Assembly: GCA_947646735.1 (NCBI GenBank)
Contig: CANTFK010000752.1
Span: 303,671-367,670 of the forward strand
Source: Peronospora farinosa
Taxonomy: Eukaryota > Oomycota > Peronosporomycetes > Peronosporales > Peronosporaceae
DNA length: 64,000 nucleotides
Reading direction: 5' to 3'
Every line of letters starts with the position of its first letter. Within the stretch, counting starts at the first letter, position 1. The notes beneath the pieces were generated by a model, which ran no database searches, was not told the origin of the DNA, and saw nothing but the letters and a program-made list of their open reading frames with translations. Positions 4,635 through 13,555 of the stretch are shown here, one piece after another. A program made the translations under genes and the position numbers.

Positions 4635-6267
4635 ATGCTGCGACGTAACTCGCGTCTTTTCGCGCTAAAAGAGCGTCTTACACCGGCGACAGCGGCTCTT
4701 TCTTCACCTTATTTGTCGTGTGTGCGCTTTAAGCGCTCATCTGCAAAATCTGGTTACGTAAGCGTTGCTAGTGGCTCCGGTATGACCTCTATAAGGTGAT
4801 GTCAATAATAAGTGTCAAAATATTATTGACAATTGGTTTTGAACAGATCGCAGCACAGCGCTGACGATGGCGATCCGTCAAATTGAAAGCAGCTTTGGAA
4901 AAGGCGCTGTCATGCAATTGGGATCAACGTACGGAGTTTCTGTCAAAAGTTACAAGCACTTACGACAAAAGTTGATACATTTTTTATGATTGGGTGGTTG
5001 CTATAAATTTACTACTGTAGGAAGATTGCAGAGCGCGTGGAAGTAATTTCATCTGGATCCTTGTCTTTAGATTTGGCTTTGGGAGTAGGAGGCATTCCAA
5101 GAGGGTCGGTGACTGCTGCAACGTGGTGAAAGATGGACTACAATTTTGACATTTTGATGATTTTTTGGTAGACGTGTCGTGGAGATTTACGGCCCTGAGA
5201 GCTCAGGAAAGACGACATTAGCACTGAGTTGTATTGCTCAAGCTCAAAAAACAGAAAATGGAGTTTGTGCCTTTATCGACGCAGAGCATGCAATTGATGC
5301 CCATTACGCGAAAGCTTTGGGTGTTGATATTGATGCTTTATACGTCTCCCAGCCGGACTCTGGTGAAGAAGCGCTGGAGATTGCTGATACACTTATTCGA
5401 TCTGGAGCAGTGGATCTTGTTGTGCTTGACAGTGTTGCGGCACTTGTGCCACGAGCGGAGCTGGAGGGTGAGATGGGAGATCAACAAATTGCTTTGCAAG
5501 CACGGCTCATGAGTCAAGCTCTACGAAAGCTGACTGGATCACTTTCTAAATCCAACTGCACTATTATTTTCCTGAACCAGATTCGACAGAAAGTAGGCAT
5601 TATCTTTGGATCTCCTGAGGTGACGTCGGGTGGCACGGCGTTGCGCTACTACGCGTCAGTGCGGCTGGATATCCGCCGCAAGACGGCAATCAAGGAAGGT
5701 GACCAGGTGGTCGGTAATGAGACGGTGGTTAAGGTGGCCAAGAACAAGCTGGCGTCGCCTTTCAAGGTTGCAAACTTTGACATGATGTTCGGGCACGGTA
5801 TCGATCGCCAGTCGGAGCTGGTATGGACAGGTTTATGTTTCTTGGTTAATGTGAATGCTACTAGACGGCTTACACTCGTTGATTGTACAGCTTGAGTTGG
5901 GTGTCCAGCATGGCCTGTTGAAGCGCTCGGGCGCGTGGTATAGTCTCGCTGGGAGCGATGGTAAGACTTGGCGACTGTTTTGGACCTCAATTTTTTGCTG
6001 CTGCTAACATTGTACATTGCACTCGGCCTTGCAGAACCAATTGCTCAAGGAAAGGCGAAGGCCAAGGTTTTTCTACAGGAACATCCTAAAATTGCGAATG
6101 ACCTCGAAGCAAAGTTGCGTCAGATGCTTTTCCAGTCTGTCGGGGTTGAGGAAAAAGCTGGCGTGGATTCTGACACCGAAGTGGCTGACAAGGATGAGTC
6201 AAATGCTACCTCAACCGAAGGTGTTGACAGTGACATTAACAATGAAGATGAGAAGATCACCATGTGA
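4635..6267 (+). CDS. recA: Bacterial-type RecA recombinase, nuclear-encoded and probably mitochondrial
   Basis: Exons 4635-4795, 4854-4928, 5021-5104, 5172-5820, 5891-5960 and 6035-6267 join in phase to 1272 nt (423 aa); every intron is GT-AG and 58-92 bp long. The N-terminal ~45 residues are rich in Arg/Ser/Ala with few acids, like a mitochondrial presequence. The RecA core follows: Walker [10 protein letters not shown], the Walker B strand [10 protein letters not shown], and loop L2 with [20 protein letters not shown]. The C-terminal domain runs from [11 protein letters not shown] to [13 protein letters not shown]. This is the eubacterial family, not eukaryotic Rad51, so it should act in strand exchange on organelle DNA. 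The tail after residue ~390 is acidic and variable. It is convergent with the downstream fusion gene. Confidence 0.93.
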
Positions 6268-6551: not shown

Positions 6552-9500
6552 CTAAAATGCCATGCTAAACGAAGTTGGCGGAAGTGCATTCGCCACCTGG
6601 CACCGCTCAGCCTTCGAGTAGCGCTTCTTAATCACCGCCAAATTGTTTGACGGTGAATTAGAGTACAGCGTCTGAAGCTCCCTCATACACTCTTTCAAGT
6701 CTGACCAGCTGTACTGACAAGCATCTACCAGCTCCTTGGTCTAAAAGTAAAACCATGACACATTAGCACAACGCAAAGCAAGTCAGACGCATCAAGCAGC
6801 TTACCATTGGAAACCCATCCATTGTGTACATTGCCATCGAGAGGCAGCATGCAGCGACTACCGACGGCAAATACTTCAAGAACTGATACTCTTGCAGCGC
6901 CAGCTCGAGCAAGTAGTGTGCCAGCATAGTTGTCTTTTTCTGAACAGGCGGAATCATGCGCTCGTAAATATTCAGGAAATCCAAGGCTACACACAACACA
7001 AGAATATGCACACAGGTTAGTGTAGAACAACCCACCAAGTCAACGATCCCGAAAACCTACCAGTGGGTACCGAGAGTGTAAAGTTAAGAGTGTTCAGCAG
7101 TTTTTCTTCCATTTCCAACACCTCCACGGACGTGTACACGTTGTCAGCACACATAGCGAGATCTTCCACACCAATATACGATACATCCTCGCACTTGGAT
7201 GCAACGTGCAAACAAGTTGCTCCAAGCAGTTGGAACTGCGTCTTTTTCACCATAACGATGTCCAAATACCGGTCGGTGTAATTAACCGCCAAAAACGCAG
7301 TTCTCAGGCACATCTCAAACACGTCCACGACTAAAGTGTACAAACGTAAAGTTAAACGTATCAGCCGCCTTTTACACGCACATGGCGACGCAATAAGAGC
7401 ATACCTTCAATCAACCAATCGACAAGCATCGACCGATGCGCTGGTCGAAGGGTTTTCTGCCGGCTACATGGCAAAACCATCGACATTGAAGCAAATATTA
7501 GTACTTTTACACATCATAATCTCGTTACTCCATCTTCTGTCACGTACCTCAAGTATTTAATTTCCTTCCACGACTCCAGTTCTGTTTGACGCAAGTACGC
7601 GTGGAACAACGCCACATGCTCTGGCGTAGGGCCAACTCGTGCTCGACTCATTGTGTAGCACATCTGGTCCATTGGAATTTTTGGTGTGAGCGATGAGAAG
7701 CCAGGAGCCTCGTTTGAGAAATACGGGTGGCGAAGCGCGTCTTCGGCTGAAATTCGCTGGTCGGGATTGTATACGAGGAGCTTCGTCAGCAAGTCGATGC
7801 CAAGATTCGAGATTCTTGGGAACAGACGATTTAAGGGTCGGCGCTTCCAATGCGGAAACTCGAAGTGGTAATTTGGCAAGGACGAGAACCCTGGCCACGT
7901 CTCCGACGTTGGTGTCGACAACTTGCTAAATATTTGGAATAGCTGGTCAATCTCAGATATGCCTGTAAAAAGCGGTTTGCCCTGGGCCATCTCAGCGAAG
8001 ATGCAGCCAATAGACCAAATGTCAACAGCCGAAGAGTAGCCGCGCACTCCCATCAAGATTTCTGGGGGGCGGTACCACAATGTAACTACTTCCATCGTGT
8101 AAGTTCGGCGTGGAATTCCGGTCGCCCGGACCAGCGCAAAGTCAGAGATCTGCAGTATTGCGTCACCTAGATGCAAGAGACACATTTTTAGTGCGTTAGT
8201 GTACGCACATAAAAATATGTGAAGTCATTATGACATCTTACTAAGATTTGCGGTATCAGATGTCTTGATTAACAAATGCTTTGGTTTGAGATTACGATGT
8301 AGGACTCCACGGCGGTGGCAGTATGCGATCGCATCTAGAAGTTGGTGGAGAAGCTTGCGAATCTGTCGAGAAAACATAGCAAGATAAGAAAACCTGCGTG
8401 CTTCATAAAAAGGTGACAAAAGGCGACAAAGCCGCGTTTTACTCACCACACTTTCTGGCAACACACGGCCACCGGTAGGGTCTCCCGTTGGGTTAATAAC
8501 TTCATGTAAAGTTTTGTCCACGTAAGGGAAAAACACATGAAGCTCGTCTTTAGCAAGGCTGATGAGTTCAAGGGACGCAATGTGATCGTGCTTGATACCC
8601 TTCAGAACAGCTAACTCTCTGAGCATGTAATACGGTACCCCTTCTCCCTATCATCGTACGGACAAAGCACAATAGCGAATTGTCAGTGCTTCTGTCATAT
8701 TAATATTCGTCGTTACAAACACATTTACCTTGGGAAACACTCTCGCCTTTTTTATCGCCAAGATCTTGCCTGTGGAGCGCTGACAGCATTTAATACAGGT
8801 TCCCTCGGTCCCCTTGTTCTTAATCCCCAGATTCTTAAAATTAATCCAGTTCACCGATCCTTCAGGTGTTACACTCGGAAGTGACCGATACAACGATCGT
8901 CGGCTTGTCAGCTCTTTCCACTTCTTCGACACCTGTGCCATACTTTGCAAGTCTTTTGCAGTGACCAGGAAGGAGAACACGTGTAAAATGATGTCAATAG
9001 GCTGCAGGTCAAAGTGCTCCGATGGTGTTAGCACCGGTTCGACCTCGTTCATTCTGACTTCAAGCGGTCTGTTGCCTTCCCAATCGTCCTCGTCATTCGC
9101 CGCTGGTGATGCGATCAAAATTTCACGACGCACCGCTTTGCTAGCACGATGCTCCACCGCGCGTTCGGAGGGATCGATCGAAAATCCCTCTTCTCCTACT
9201 TCTTGACTATGAATATGTTCTCTCGCGTAAGCCACGAAATCCGTCGTCTCAGCCTCTATACTTTCGTCTGCTCGTTTTCTCTTACCAACTGGTAATACAT
9301 CAAGTAAAAACAACACACACACATATACAATACAACCATCAGTTTCCAGCTAACTTTACTACGAGAAATGACCAATGCACCATACCAAAAGAAGCAGCAA
9401 CAAAACTACTCTCCGTCTTGACAAAAGACACAGCATACGATTGTTTCTGTTCTTGTGTGATAACAGGTCGTAAATCTTCTTTATGCTGATAGTTCAAGCT

Positions 9501-9893
9501 ATGAACTTTGCACTCTTCCTCCACCACAGCAATATCAGCAACAGCAGCATGACTCGCCATCTTTTTCTCTTCCTTGACACGATTCATAGACGTTTCAGCA
9601 ATGCACTGGGACAAATTCAGCGGCTTTGAGTCCAAAGAACCGGTCTTAGCAACGAGCTGCGAGCGTGGTGTCCCTCCCAGTGCAGCCAGAATGGGATTCT
9701 CAGCCCCAGTTGCACACAGCAGCAATGGAAAACTGTCTCTCTTCTTCTCCGACTCTTTTTTAATCGATATCCCGTCTTCAAGTGGTAATAAACTTCCTTG
9801 GTTTTCTCTTTCTGTACTTGTTGCTCGACGTTTTTTCAATGGCGTGGAGTTTGAAGAATAAGAGATACGACTAGTGGACGACGAAGTGTCCAT
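6552..9893 (-). CDS. F-box / CDK-like pseudokinase / cyclin fusion protein, 902 aa
   Basis: Nine exons on the minus strand (9386-9893, 8729-9288, 8447-8647, 8242-8362, 7548-8166, 7405-7463, 7061-7330, 6805-6986, 6552-6740) sum to 2709 nt, exactly 903 codons, with all introns GT-AG and in phase. Residues 1-255 are charged and basic with KKRR-type signals. Residues ~262-305 form an F-box. A CDK fold spans ~317-630: Lys349 (LAIKK), helix C GVPYYMLRE in place of GVPSTAIRE with Glu367, and a T-loop RTYTMEVVTLWYRPPE. Residues ~672-902 are an A/B-type cyclin (HRSMLVDWLIEV to the C-terminal TKELVDACQ fold). Catalytic residues are missing: HRD is HRN (445-447), the Asn is His452, DFG is DFA (472-474), and the first loop Gly is Asn. 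It is therefore likely a pseudokinase tied to its own cyclin and to SCF. The in-frame joining intron (7464-7547) contains a TACTAAT branch point. Confidence 0.88.
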
Positions 9894-10753
9894 TCACTTC
9901 CCGTTGTTTTGAAATGGTCTGTTGAATTTTATTCAAAACAAATGTATAAATTTATAGAGAATATCAGATTATAAAAATATTAAAATTTAAAATTTAATAA
10001 TATTAAAATATAAAAATCATAAAAAAACAGAGAGCGGGCGGGCGTGTCACGTACCAATTACAATAAACAGCAAGCAGCCGCTACAACTCGAGCTTGAATC
10101 AAAATATCAAGCGTCAAAGACTCTACGATGAAGGCAGGACGGGAGATCTTACCGTCTTCTTTCTTTTGGTTTTTGTATGCGTCTTCTTAAGAGTGCGCAC
10201 TTTTCCGTCGTTTTTTATTTTCTTGTGAGCGAGCGGACAGGAAGTGGAGACCATCACTCTGACGGTTTTACTGCTCGATGATTGGTGGTATTTAGTGAGA
10301 GTGTGTCGTAATTGGCTGGCCTTACCATATGTTGTCAAATTGTGGTAATTGAGAAACAAAGATTGCAAATAGTATCGAAATAAATGCTACGAGTGCCAAA
10401 TTAGCATTTATTTTACCGTCAGCAAAAAGACACATTTTTTTTAGTCATGACGGTTGAAAATAGGTCATTTTTCGTTAATTCGACAAAAAAATACTTTATA
10501 TTCATATGCAAAACTGACTATTGGTACAAGATCCGTATATAATTTTAGAAACAACAAAATTCTGACAATTAACAAAATGCTCGTATTTTGTAAATTTTCA
10601 GAATTTTGTTGTTTCTATATCTACAAAGTCATTTCTCTTGGTAGCCATCTCATGTCTACCACACGAATCTTCCGTCACATACGTGGCATAACTTCATAAT
10701 TCAAATTGGTCTTAAAGTAGCAAGTGAGTTTTCTTGTATCACATTTCACAGGG
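9894..10753. promoter_or_regulatory. Divergent intergenic region between fusion gene and SND1
   Basis: 860 bp separating two divergently transcribed genes. The part nearest the fusion gene (about 9920-10025) is extremely AT-rich. A perfect 18-bp inverted repeat lies at 10547-10564 / 10599-10616, about 140-210 bp before the SND1 start. Open frames of about 80 codons here look like chance. Promoters of both genes must lie here, but individual sites cannot be assigned. Confidence 0.5.
10547..10616. repeat. Perfect 18-bp inverted repeat (hairpin)
   Basis: The left arm AGAAACAACAAAATTCTG at 10547-10564 and its exact reverse complement at 10599-10616 flank a 34-nt loop. The loop holds a second small complementarity (CAAAAT...ATTTTG). 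It lies upstream of SND1 and could be a short MITE, a 5' UTR hairpin or a cruciform. Only the symmetry itself is observed. Confidence 0.85.
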
Positions 10754-13555
10754 ATGGCTTCAGGTCACGCTACTGTCAAGGCTGTTCTATCAGGCGATAC
10801 ACTTGTGCTTATGGGTACAGCTACGAATGGTCCTCCACCCGAATTAATGCTTACGCTTTCATCATTACAAGCCCCACGTCTTGCACGTTCTCCTGAACAA
10901 ATTAATGAACCATATGCTTGGGCCAGTCGGGAACATTTACGCAAATTATGTGTGGGAAAAGTCGTTCGATTTCAAGTTGAGTACCGTATCTCGAGTATTA
11001 GTCGTGATTTTGGCTCTGTATGGCTGCCAATAAACAGTCGAGGCGTTGAAGAGAATCTGTGTGTGATTCAAGCACGAACAGGTTACGCGAAGGTAAAAAC
11101 GCTCGACCAATCACGTGATGGTGTATGTGGAGATTATGATAAAATGGTGCAGCAAGAACAAGTGGCCATGGACGAGAAAAAAGGCATGTATGCCGATGCG
11201 GACATAGAGTCGAATGCGACTGTTCAGTGGCTTGGGGCTGATGGAGCGACATTATTGGAACAATACAAGGGAAAATTAGTTCAAGCTGTTGTCGAGTCAG
11301 TGAGAGATGGAGCATCTCTTCGAGTGATCTTAAAGCCTTCGTTGCAATTAGTCAATTTTGGACTGGCTGGAGTGCAATGTCCACGAGTTAATCAGCCAGG
11401 GAATGCTGCTGCTGCTGCTACTGCAGAAGGAGGAAAAGCTAATGCTGTGAATGCGACGTCGTCGTCGACTCTGACGGGTCCAGCACCTCATGCGCGAGAA
11501 GCTAAGCATTTCACCGAGGTGCGACTGCTCCATCGTGACGTGGAGCTCAAGCTAGAGGGTGTGGACAAGTATGGCAATTTGTTTGGCAGTGTGGTGCACC
11601 CATCGGGTAACAATATCAGTGTGGAACTGCTAAAGAACGGACTAGGTTGGATGGCAGACTGGAGCTCGTCGTTCACGAGTGCTTCAGCACGTGCTGCAAT
11701 GCGCGCAGCGGAGAAGGAGGCAAAGCATACAAAATTGCGTGTGTGGCGGGAATATGAGGCACCCGTGCTGCATTCTCCCAAGCATCTGACCGGTACGGTG
11801 GTGGAAGTCATTAGCGGTGACTGCCTCGTTGTCTATGTTCCTGATGCAGCGACTCCAGCTGAGCAGGAAAAGCGTATTTATCTGAGCTCGCTACGTGCAC
11901 CACGTCTTGGAAATGCTCGTCGCGGTGAATCGGGTGCGCCGTATGCTGCGGAGGCTAAAGAGTTTCTGCGCCACCGTGCCATTGCAAAAACCGTGCACGT
12001 TGAGGTCGAGTATGAAAAACCCAGCGCTTCTGGCCAGGGTGATGCAATGTTGTTTGCTTCGGTATTCCTCGAGCCGTCTTCAAACGCGATGAAGAAGAAT
12101 CCACAAGCAAAGGGTGCAAACCTTGCTATCGATATCGTTACCGCTGGTCTGGCTGAGGTGGTGCGTCACCGCCCCGAAGAGGAGAAAAGCGAATACTATG
12201 ACGATCTCGTAACGGCAGAGACAAAGGCTCAGACACAGAAGAAGAATTTGCACTCCTCAAAGGAGCCTCCTACTACCGAACGTCGTGTAACCGACCTGTG
12301 TTTCGATTCTACGAAAGCCAAGCAGTTTTTACCTTTCCTAAAGCGTGAACGATCGACTCGTGCTGTGGTAGAGCACGTCTACTCGGCCACACGCCTGAAG
12401 CTTTTTGTCCCCAAGGAAAACTGTCTCATAAATTTCGTAGTTGCCGGTATCAAGTGCCCGCAGCCTGCCCGTCACGGAGCAATGGGTGTGATTGTGGCAC
12501 CAGCAGAGCCTTTCGGCGAAGAGGCGAAGCTGTTCACGAAACGCGGCGTCATGCAACGTGAGGTGATGGTGGAATTTGAGGATATGGATCGCGGTGGCAA
12601 CGCTTTCGGTCCTTTGTTCGTGGTTCCGGATGGCGGTGGTAAACCTCTGTCTGATGAGGAGCACAACTTCGGCGTGCGTCTGCTAGAGGAGGGTCTTGCC
12701 TGGGTGGATTCTTTCAGTGTCGAGCGCACTGCAATGGGCAATGTGCTTCAGCGTGCAGAGGAGCGTGCGAAAGTGCAGAAGAAGAAGTATTGGGCCTTGT
12801 ACGACGCTCAAGCTGTGGCCAAGGCTGCCCAGACAAAGCAGGTGAAGACGAAGGACGACGTGATCCCGCGTGTGAAGCTTTCGGAGATCATCAGTGGCAC
12901 CCATTTTTACATTCAAAATGTGGGCGACCGCAACTGCGCCGCTGTGGAGGAGAAAATGAAAGCATTTACGCGTATGCACGGATTGTCTGGTAAGGCCTTC
13001 GAGGTGCGCCGTAACACTGTGTGTGCTGCGCTCTTTGATGATGCTAATGGTCCCACCTGGAACCGAGCTAAGGTTGAGTATGTTCACCCGGACGGATCTG
13101 CCCGTGTTCGCTTCCTTGACTACGGTAACGAGACGACTGTGACGGCCAATGGTCTGCGTCCACTCGACGCTGACGTGCTGCAGTTCCCTCCTCAGGCGAA
13201 GGAAGCAACGTTCGCCTGGATCAAGCCGTTGGCGGCGACGGAGGAGTTTGGAGCTGATGCTGCCATGCGTCTCGGCGAAGTTGCTTGGGGAAAGACTCTT
13301 TCCTGCCGTATTCACAGCATCGAGGACCACGGTTGCATGCAAGTGTCCCTTTACCTACCGGGTGGCAAGAGCGTCTCGGAAAGTTTAGTAGAAGCTGGTC
13401 TGCTGCGCATCGACCGCAAGGCACTCCGCGATGTCTTGTTGTACCAGAAGCCTGTTGTTGACGGCCTGCTTAACGCACAGGAATCCGCTAAGAAGCAGCG
13501 TCTTTGCCTGTGGCAGTACGGCGATATCGAGTCCGACGACGAGCATGGTTTGTAG
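10754..13555 (+). CDS. SND1: Staphylococcal nuclease / Tudor domain protein (Tudor-SN, p100)
   Basis: A single-exon frame of 933 aa from ATG 10754. The same frame is open 30 nt further up but has no upstream ATG. Four tandem SN-like OB folds are visible, each opening with a recognisable beta-barrel strand: SGDTLVLMG near residue 14, VESVRDGASLRVILKPSLQL near 180, EVISGDCLVVYVPD near 355, and EHVYSATRLKLFVP near 540. A Tudor domain follows around residues 720-800 (WNRAKVEYVHPDGSARVRFLDYGNE, the aromatic-cage core), then a split fifth SN fold at the C-terminus. This architecture and length match eukaryotic SND1, which binds RNA and acts in splicing, mRNA stability, stress granules and small-RNA pathways. 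An Ala-rich GCT-repeat tract near residues 218-226 is a local oddity. Confidence 0.96.
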   Translation: MASGHATVKAVLSGDTLVLMGTATNGPPPELMLTLSSLQAPRLARSPEQINEPYAWASREHLRKLCVGKVVRFQVEYRISSISRDFGSVWLPINSRGVEENLCVIQARTGYAKVKTLDQSRDGVCGDYDKMVQQEQVAMDEKKGMYADADIESNATVQWLGADGATLLEQYKGKLVQAVVESVRDGASLRVILKPSLQLVNFGLAGVQCPRVNQPGNAAAAATAEGGKANAVNATSSSTLTGPAPHAREAKHFTEVRLLHRDVELKLEGVDKYGNLFGSVVHPSGNNISVELLKNGLGWMADWSSSFTSASARAAMRAAEKEAKHTKLRVWREYEAPVLHSPKHLTGTVVEVISGDCLVVYVPDAATPAEQEKRIYLSSLRAPRLGNARRGESGAPYAAEAKEFLRHRAIAKTVHVEVEYEKPSASGQGDAMLFASVFLEPSSNAMKKNPQAKGANLAIDIVTAGLAEVVRHRPEEEKSEYYDDLVTAETKAQTQKKNLHSSKEPPTTERRVTDLCFDSTKAKQFLPFLKRERSTRAVVEHVYSATRLKLFVPKENCLINFVVAGIKCPQPARHGAMGVIVAPAEPFGEEAKLFTKRGVMQREVMVEFEDMDRGGNAFGPLFVVPDGGGKPLSDEEHNFGVRLLEEGLAWVDSFSVERTAMGNVLQRAEERAKVQKKKYWALYDAQAVAKAAQTKQVKTKDDVIPRVKLSEIISGTHFYIQNVGDRNCAAVEEKMKAFTRMHGLSGKAFEVRRNTVCAALFDDANGPTWNRAKVEYVHPDGSARVRFLDYGNETTVTANGLRPLDADVLQFPPQAKEATFAWIKPLAATEEFGADAAMRLGEVAWGKTLSCRIHSIEDHGCMQVSLYLPGGKSVSESLVEAGLLRIDRKALRDVLLYQKPVVDGLLNAQESAKKQRLCLWQYGDIESDDEHGL

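Follow-up and report, generated by a model that had tools for sequence, protein, structure and literature searches.

Fusions of a cyclin-dependent kinase (CDK) to a cyclin have been described in oomycetes. Phytophthora infestans encodes four CDKs with C-terminal cyclin domains, and the fusions were confirmed by reverse transcription PCR (RT-PCR; Judelson and Ah-Fong, 2010; PMC3019232). In that paper's account of these proteins, all four fusions share an Asp-to-Asn change with relatives that include those of ciliates, Theileria, and other oomycetes; the proteins were judged to be possibly inactive, and it was suggested that the cyclin domain may control how stable the protein is (PMC3019232). 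Supplements aside, the main text of the paper nowhere uses the term F-box. Here we describe a gene of the downy mildew Peronospora farinosa that encodes an F-box, a CDK-like kinase, and a cyclin in one chain. The gene lies on the minus strand (9893-6552) of a window of 64,000 nucleotides (assembly GCA_947646735.1, contig CANTFK010000752.1, positions 303,671 to 367,670), to which all coordinates refer. The kinase domain looks dead, and the protein probably does not phosphorylate its targets but marks them out for destruction. As judged from its sequence, it may be a substrate receptor of a Skp1-Cul1-F-box (SCF) ubiquitin ligase that docks its cargo via an inert CDK-cyclin pair, a proposal with about an even chance of being right.

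The gene is real. Its nine exons (in transcript order 9893-9386, 9288-8729, 8647-8447, 8362-8242, 8166-7548, 7463-7405, 7330-7061, 6986-6805, and 6740-6552, minus strand) join to 2709 nt, which encode 902 amino acids plus a stop (903 codons), and all eight introns (64-97 nt) run from GT to AG. Exon 1 (9386..9893, minus strand) encodes a disordered N-terminal part; exon 2 (8729..9288, minus strand) encodes the remainder of this part, the F-box, and the start of the kinase. The first-pass annotation of the locus had claimed nine exons with consensus splice sites joining in phase to 903 codons. This was borne out, and the product is identical in every letter to the NCBI P. farinosa protein P0001. 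The intron between the kinase exon and the cyclin exons (7464..7547, minus strand) reads GTACGTGA...TACTAAT...CCATGTAG, with its start, end, and branch point as first described; without its splicing the reading frame stops at 7514. At seven of the eight exon junctions the 16 flanking residues align gap-free to all six oomycete relatives tested, the exception being the first junction, which follows residue 169 in the weakly conserved N-terminal region and is without such alignment support. Two separate transcripts, or orthologs that are always two genes, would have spoken against a fusion; the relatives are instead single proteins, with the P. infestans fusions confirmed by RT-PCR (PMC3019232). 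Four MMETSP transcript entries (P0082, P0093, P0094, and P0096) each bear kinase and cyclin domains. A gene-model artefact was thus ruled out by the identity with P0001, the relatives, the P. infestans RT-PCR (PMC3019232), and the junction alignments.

The three types of domain named in the first-pass annotation were all recovered as Pfam matches above the curated cut-offs. These are an F-box-like domain (residues 266-306; 8879..9001, minus strand; 5.4e-11), a CDK-like Pkinase domain (residues 328-613; 7718..8815, minus strand, broken by introns 8648-8728, 8363-8446, and 8167-8241; 2.4e-51), and, on the same strand, Cyclin_N (residues 653-776; 2.1e-34) and Cyclin_C (residues 778-892; 2e-25). 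The two cyclin domains together cover residues 653-892 (6585..7600, minus strand, broken by introns 7464-7547, 7331-7404, 6987-7060, and 6741-6804). The F-box ends about 20 residues upstream of the kinase. In the AlphaFold2 model the three domains are packed together, with a predicted TM-score (pTM) of 0.72 and a predicted local distance difference test (pLDDT) value of >=50 at 645 of the 902 residues; residues 1-253 are nearly all of low confidence. Two structure models, both with high pTM, pack all domains, and the cyclin is predicted to pack on the kinase of its own chain, as had been proposed. The disordered N-terminal part holds a conserved motif with an SP site, IDPSERAVEHRASKAVRREILIASPAAND (residues 207-235; 9092-9178, minus strand). 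The motif, approximately IDPSxR..EHRxxKxVRREIxIASP, is present in 11 of the 12 oomycete rows examined and absent from P0026.

The active site of the kinase domain is altered. The catalytic loop reads HRNLKPKH (HRDLKPQN in CDK2; residues 445-452; 8276..8299, minus strand), DFA stands at the DFG position (residues 472-474; 8135..8143, minus strand), and PYYMLRE occupies the PSTAIRE position of helix C (residues 361-367; 8615..8635, minus strand). Positions were counted, in CDK2 numbering, in alignment A2, which comprises 75 relatives chosen from 145 fetched proteins, and are read by the established roles of individual CDK2 residues. The catalytic Asp (HRD) is Asn and the position of Asn132 is His in all 75 rows, the DFG Gly is Ala in 74 rows and Ser in the remaining one, and the position of the inhibitory Tyr15 is Glu in 73/73. 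Eighteen columns are invariant across the 75 rows, N447 and H452 among them. Because the replacements are fixed at otherwise conserved positions, they suggest selection for an inert or altered active site rather than decay. The working intramolecular CDK-cyclin pair envisaged in the first-pass annotation is not supported, since the Asp of HRD, the Asn of the catalytic loop, and the Gly of DFG are all replaced, here and across the aligned relatives. The altered catalytic loop has one match in the P. farinosa genome (control, 0), and separate CDKs are encoded there, C204 with HRD and DFG and C266 with RDLKPQN and DFG.

Other parts of the site are kept. The equivalents of Lys33 (72/73), Glu51 (74/75), and Asp145 (75/75) are retained, as are the T-loop Thr160 (73/73) and its phosphate-binding arginines Arg50 (75/75), Arg126 (75/75), and Arg150 (74/74). 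The retention of Lys33, Glu51, and Asp145, together with replacements that are fixed rather than scattered (75/75, 75/75, and 74/75), would suit a rebuilt enzyme, in which the HRN...KH...DFA site binds nucleotide and, with its own cyclin as activator, still catalyzes a reaction, perhaps a phosphotransfer that is weak or non-standard. It is nevertheless general knowledge that pseudokinases are typically recognized by the joint loss of the catalytic Asp and the catalytic-loop Asn, and kinase activity appears to have been lost. A rebuilt enzyme is also at odds with the possible inactivity that the 2010 authors ascribed to the P. infestans proteins (PMC3019232), and we consider it very unlikely.

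In profile comparisons the cyclin comes closest to cyclin A (5.4e-49), followed by cyclin B1 (4.4e-41); cyclin F scores lower (1.9e-30). A cyclin F ortholog was ruled out by these scores, and the database name Cyclin-F on proteins of the family is a label only. The cyclin residues that contact the CDK are retained (Lys266 in 74/74 rows, Glu295 in 68/74), and the helix C segment EGVPYYMLRE, which adjoins the cyclin contacts, is conserved in the aligned family. Given these contact residues and the ordinary CDKs of the genome, the fused cyclin might activate an ordinary cellular CDK in trans, with the dead domain and the F-box only positioning or timing it. This is a long shot: both models pack all domains together, and the helix C segment is kept as expected for docking on the kinase of the same chain.

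Docking surfaces are kept as well. HRSMLVDW (residues 679-686; 7415..7438, minus strand) lies at the position of MRAILVDW, in the RxL groove of cyclin A. The groove residues L214, W217, and Q254 are conserved in all 37 core rows (26 oomycete, 5 named ochrophyte, and 6 labyrinthulid-like), a grouping that is partly our own: P0013 and P0026 were counted as oomycete without a name label, and among the labyrinthulid-like rows names are available for just two, P0057 (Hondaea) and P0072 (labelled Durusdinium), the others being placed by the tree. W217 is put at the heart of the RxL site in the relevant section of PMC6170502. On the Cks face the picture is mixed: E208 (70/73), I209 (60/73), and P241 (75/75) are retained, and D206 is not.

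An F-box-like Pfam match (E <=0.05) was detected in 33 of the 46 family members of alignment A1. The F-box is thus a recurrent feature of the family. A broader F-box profile matches 85 of the 90 kinase-plus-cyclin proteins with HRN, which is an upper figure because this profile takes in the linker. The F-box-to-kinase spacing is similar for the majority of rows; a few, e.g., P0065 and P0067, carry long insertions. When a profile of the F-box regions of 15 members was used, 31 PDB sequences were matched at E <=0.01: 18 named F-box, 6 Skp2, 4 KDM2A/B, 1 Cdc4, 1fs1, and 1 unnamed expressed sequence. Skp2 was the top match; Skp2, KDM2, and Cdc4 we take to be F-box proteins, and 1fs1, named CYCLIN A/CDK2-ASSOCIATED P19, is presumably the Skp2 F-box. 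In a single-sequence PDB search with the F-box the best match was only 0.021. In the P. farinosa genome Skp1 is matched once and cullin 11 times (on four contigs), and CKS genes are present. Because of the F-box and these Skp1 and cullin genes, binding to Skp1 and attachment to a ubiquitin ligase seem plausible.

We propose the following mechanism. The C-terminal cyclin would pack against its own chain's CDK-like domain, as cyclin A does against CDK2, and would hold it in an active-like shape. The kinase domain would not phosphorylate, because three residues are replaced: the catalytic base (HRD to HRN), an Asn that binds Mg (now His), and the Gly of DFG (now Ala). This would leave a permanently assembled inert surface made of the RxL groove, the proline-directed substrate cleft, the T-loop phosphosite, and possibly the Cks face. 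The F-box would then bring the docked cargo, putatively substrates or regulators of CDKs, to Skp1-Cul1, where it would be ubiquitinated. Put more broadly, and tentatively, since we rate it at somewhat under an even chance, a whole CDK-cyclin complex may have evolved to trap substrates naturally on behalf of a ubiquitin ligase: across stramenopiles catalysis would have been removed and its loss maintained, docking would have been kept, and an F-box would have been attached, so that the cell-cycle kinase code leads to destruction and not to phosphorylation.

Several observations weigh against a substrate receptor of this kind. Thirteen of the 46 A1 members are without a Pfam F-box-like match, and an oomycete-only F-box profile gives weak scores for some distant members (e.g., P0056, 0.24; P0091, 0.11). 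Of the parts measured, the F-box varies most (mean entropy 2.37, as compared to 1.92 for the cyclin and 1.36 for the kinase). Among the 38 rows outside the core, W217 is found in 28 and Q254 in 19, and the groove is often lost; a groove-based role may therefore not hold family-wide. On the Cks face, D206 is replaced in 72 of 73 rows (D in one). Some HRN kinases, e.g., HER3, retain weak activity.

The variability of the F-box would also suit a titrating scaffold, in which the dead pair sequesters CDK regulators (the CDK-activating kinase CAK, Cks, and inhibitors) and the F-box serves mainly for self-turnover, making the protein a regulated decoy. The T-loop Thr and its arginines are retained though catalysis is not expected, and the 2010 suggestion that the cyclin domain regulates protein stability (PMC3019232) points the same way. 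Such a decoy is harder to reconcile with the presence of the F-box in 33/46 members (Pfam) and in 85/90 HRN kinase-plus-cyclin proteins (linker-including profile), and with an RxL groove conserved in 37/37 core rows; it seems to us unlikely, if deserving of some weight.

Relatives with kinase and cyclin range from 96% down to about 35% identity among the matches listed, and the kinase-cyclin combination is therefore not a matter of chance. Those with names come from the oomycete genera Peronospora, Phytophthora, Pythium, Albugo, Aphanomyces, Saprolegnia, Achlya, and others, and outside oomycetes from Choristocarpus, Discosporangium, Chrysoparadoxa, Tribonema, Phaeothamnion, and Hondaea. For A2 (75) and A1 (46 of the 145 fetched proteins), near-duplicates were omitted by eye, as were incomplete or odd gene models and kinases lacking a cyclin. 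By local profiles, which were built from A2 itself and make this census partly circular, 104 of the 145 have kinase and cyclin (HRN in 90, HRD in one, motif unreadable by pattern in 13) and 41 have a kinase without cyclin (HRN in 18, HRD in 21, unreadable in two). In a midpoint-rooted tree of 49 kinase domains (34 family, 11 labelled active, and 4 outgroup rows, two long rows being flagged), the 34 family rows form one group with support 100/100, and nine CDK-like (CDK1/2/3) rows group without the family (97/85). One of these nine, the nematode P0125, labelled active in the tree, reads HRNLKPQN and DFG and falls outside the family. Ciliate and Theileria relatives were absent among the matches listed (best 120 of 319, best 120 of 1302, and 66/70 candidates of a further search, all in the two earlier lists already); the alveolate spread is cited from the 2010 account (PMC3019232), not confirmed by database matches. 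An IMG/VR scan based on the alignment of the family, with HRNLKPKH and EV[VI]TLWYR as patterns, matched one stretch and confirmed no relative, and a scan based on a CDK alignment matched 30 stretches, none confirmed.

Two entries of other phyla, P0072 (Durusdinium by label) and P0091 (Batrachochytrium salamandrivorans by label), fall within the family in the kinase tree, possibly as a result of contamination or transfer. P0137 (711 aa), the sole HRD kinase-plus-cyclin protein among the 145, has a cyclin downstream of a CDK in which HRD and DFG are both intact, has no F-box among its Pfam matches, and is possibly a single-chain active CDK-cyclin. Elsewhere in the window, an exon of a bacterial-type RecA (PF00154, 3.1e-107) is located at 5161-5895 on the plus strand, and an open frame at 10751-13555 has five SNase stretches and a Tudor domain, presumably resembling Tudor-SN/SND1.

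Animal cyclin F (CCNF), an SCF substrate receptor, is alike in having an F-box and a cyclin in one chain. Cyclin F is not known to have a kinase domain, whereas the P. farinosa protein has one and its cyclin is nearer to cyclins A and B. In animals cyclin F links a cyclin to SCF without kinase activity, and a similar logic has apparently been reached here with a complete inert CDK-cyclin pair. In the SCF-Skp2 system, separate proteins and an active CDK2 are involved, in contrast to the one chain described here, and recognition by Skp2 is via leucine-rich repeats. The F-box, CDK-cyclin, and Cks of SCF-Skp2/Cks1/CDK2-cyclin A meet on one substrate, p27, as set out in the relevant section of PMC6170502. 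Several giant-virus kinases in BFVD match over a length that requires kinase plus cyclin. The Pithovirus LCPAC302 protein A0A481Z6Z1 has a model match over 572 alignment columns (TMt 0.85), and moumouvirus L7RCF3 is named as a cyclin domain fused to a kinase; identity to these proteins is <=26%, and they are likened by model match and name.

The P. infestans proteins are close counterparts, sharing a CDK followed by Cyclin_N and Cyclin_C and the Asp-to-Asn change; the Asn132-to-His and DFG-to-DFA changes, the other stramenopile groups, and the kept docking surfaces are not mentioned in the section that describes them (PMC3019232). The new type of regulator claimed in the first-pass annotation is new in part: kinase-cyclin fusions and the Asp-to-Asn change were already in the 2010 kinome survey, and the F-box is absent from its main text (PMC3019232). 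Database names of Achlya, Thraustotheca, and Plasmopara proteins already bear the combination, and no report of F-box, CDK, and cyclin in a single protein was found among the open-access literature matches listed. The apparently inert pair occurs in oomycetes, in relatives of brown algae, and in a thraustochytrid. If our proposal is true, it provides a one-protein model of CDK-type docking alone directing degradation without phosphorylation, and the fixed Asp-to-Asn change, published in 2010 but unexplained, becomes directly testable. The kinase-cyclin fusion and its likely inactivity are already known (PMC3019232); within the open-access literature searched, what is added here is the F-box, the wider pattern of replaced sites, the retention of docking surfaces, and the proposed SCF role.
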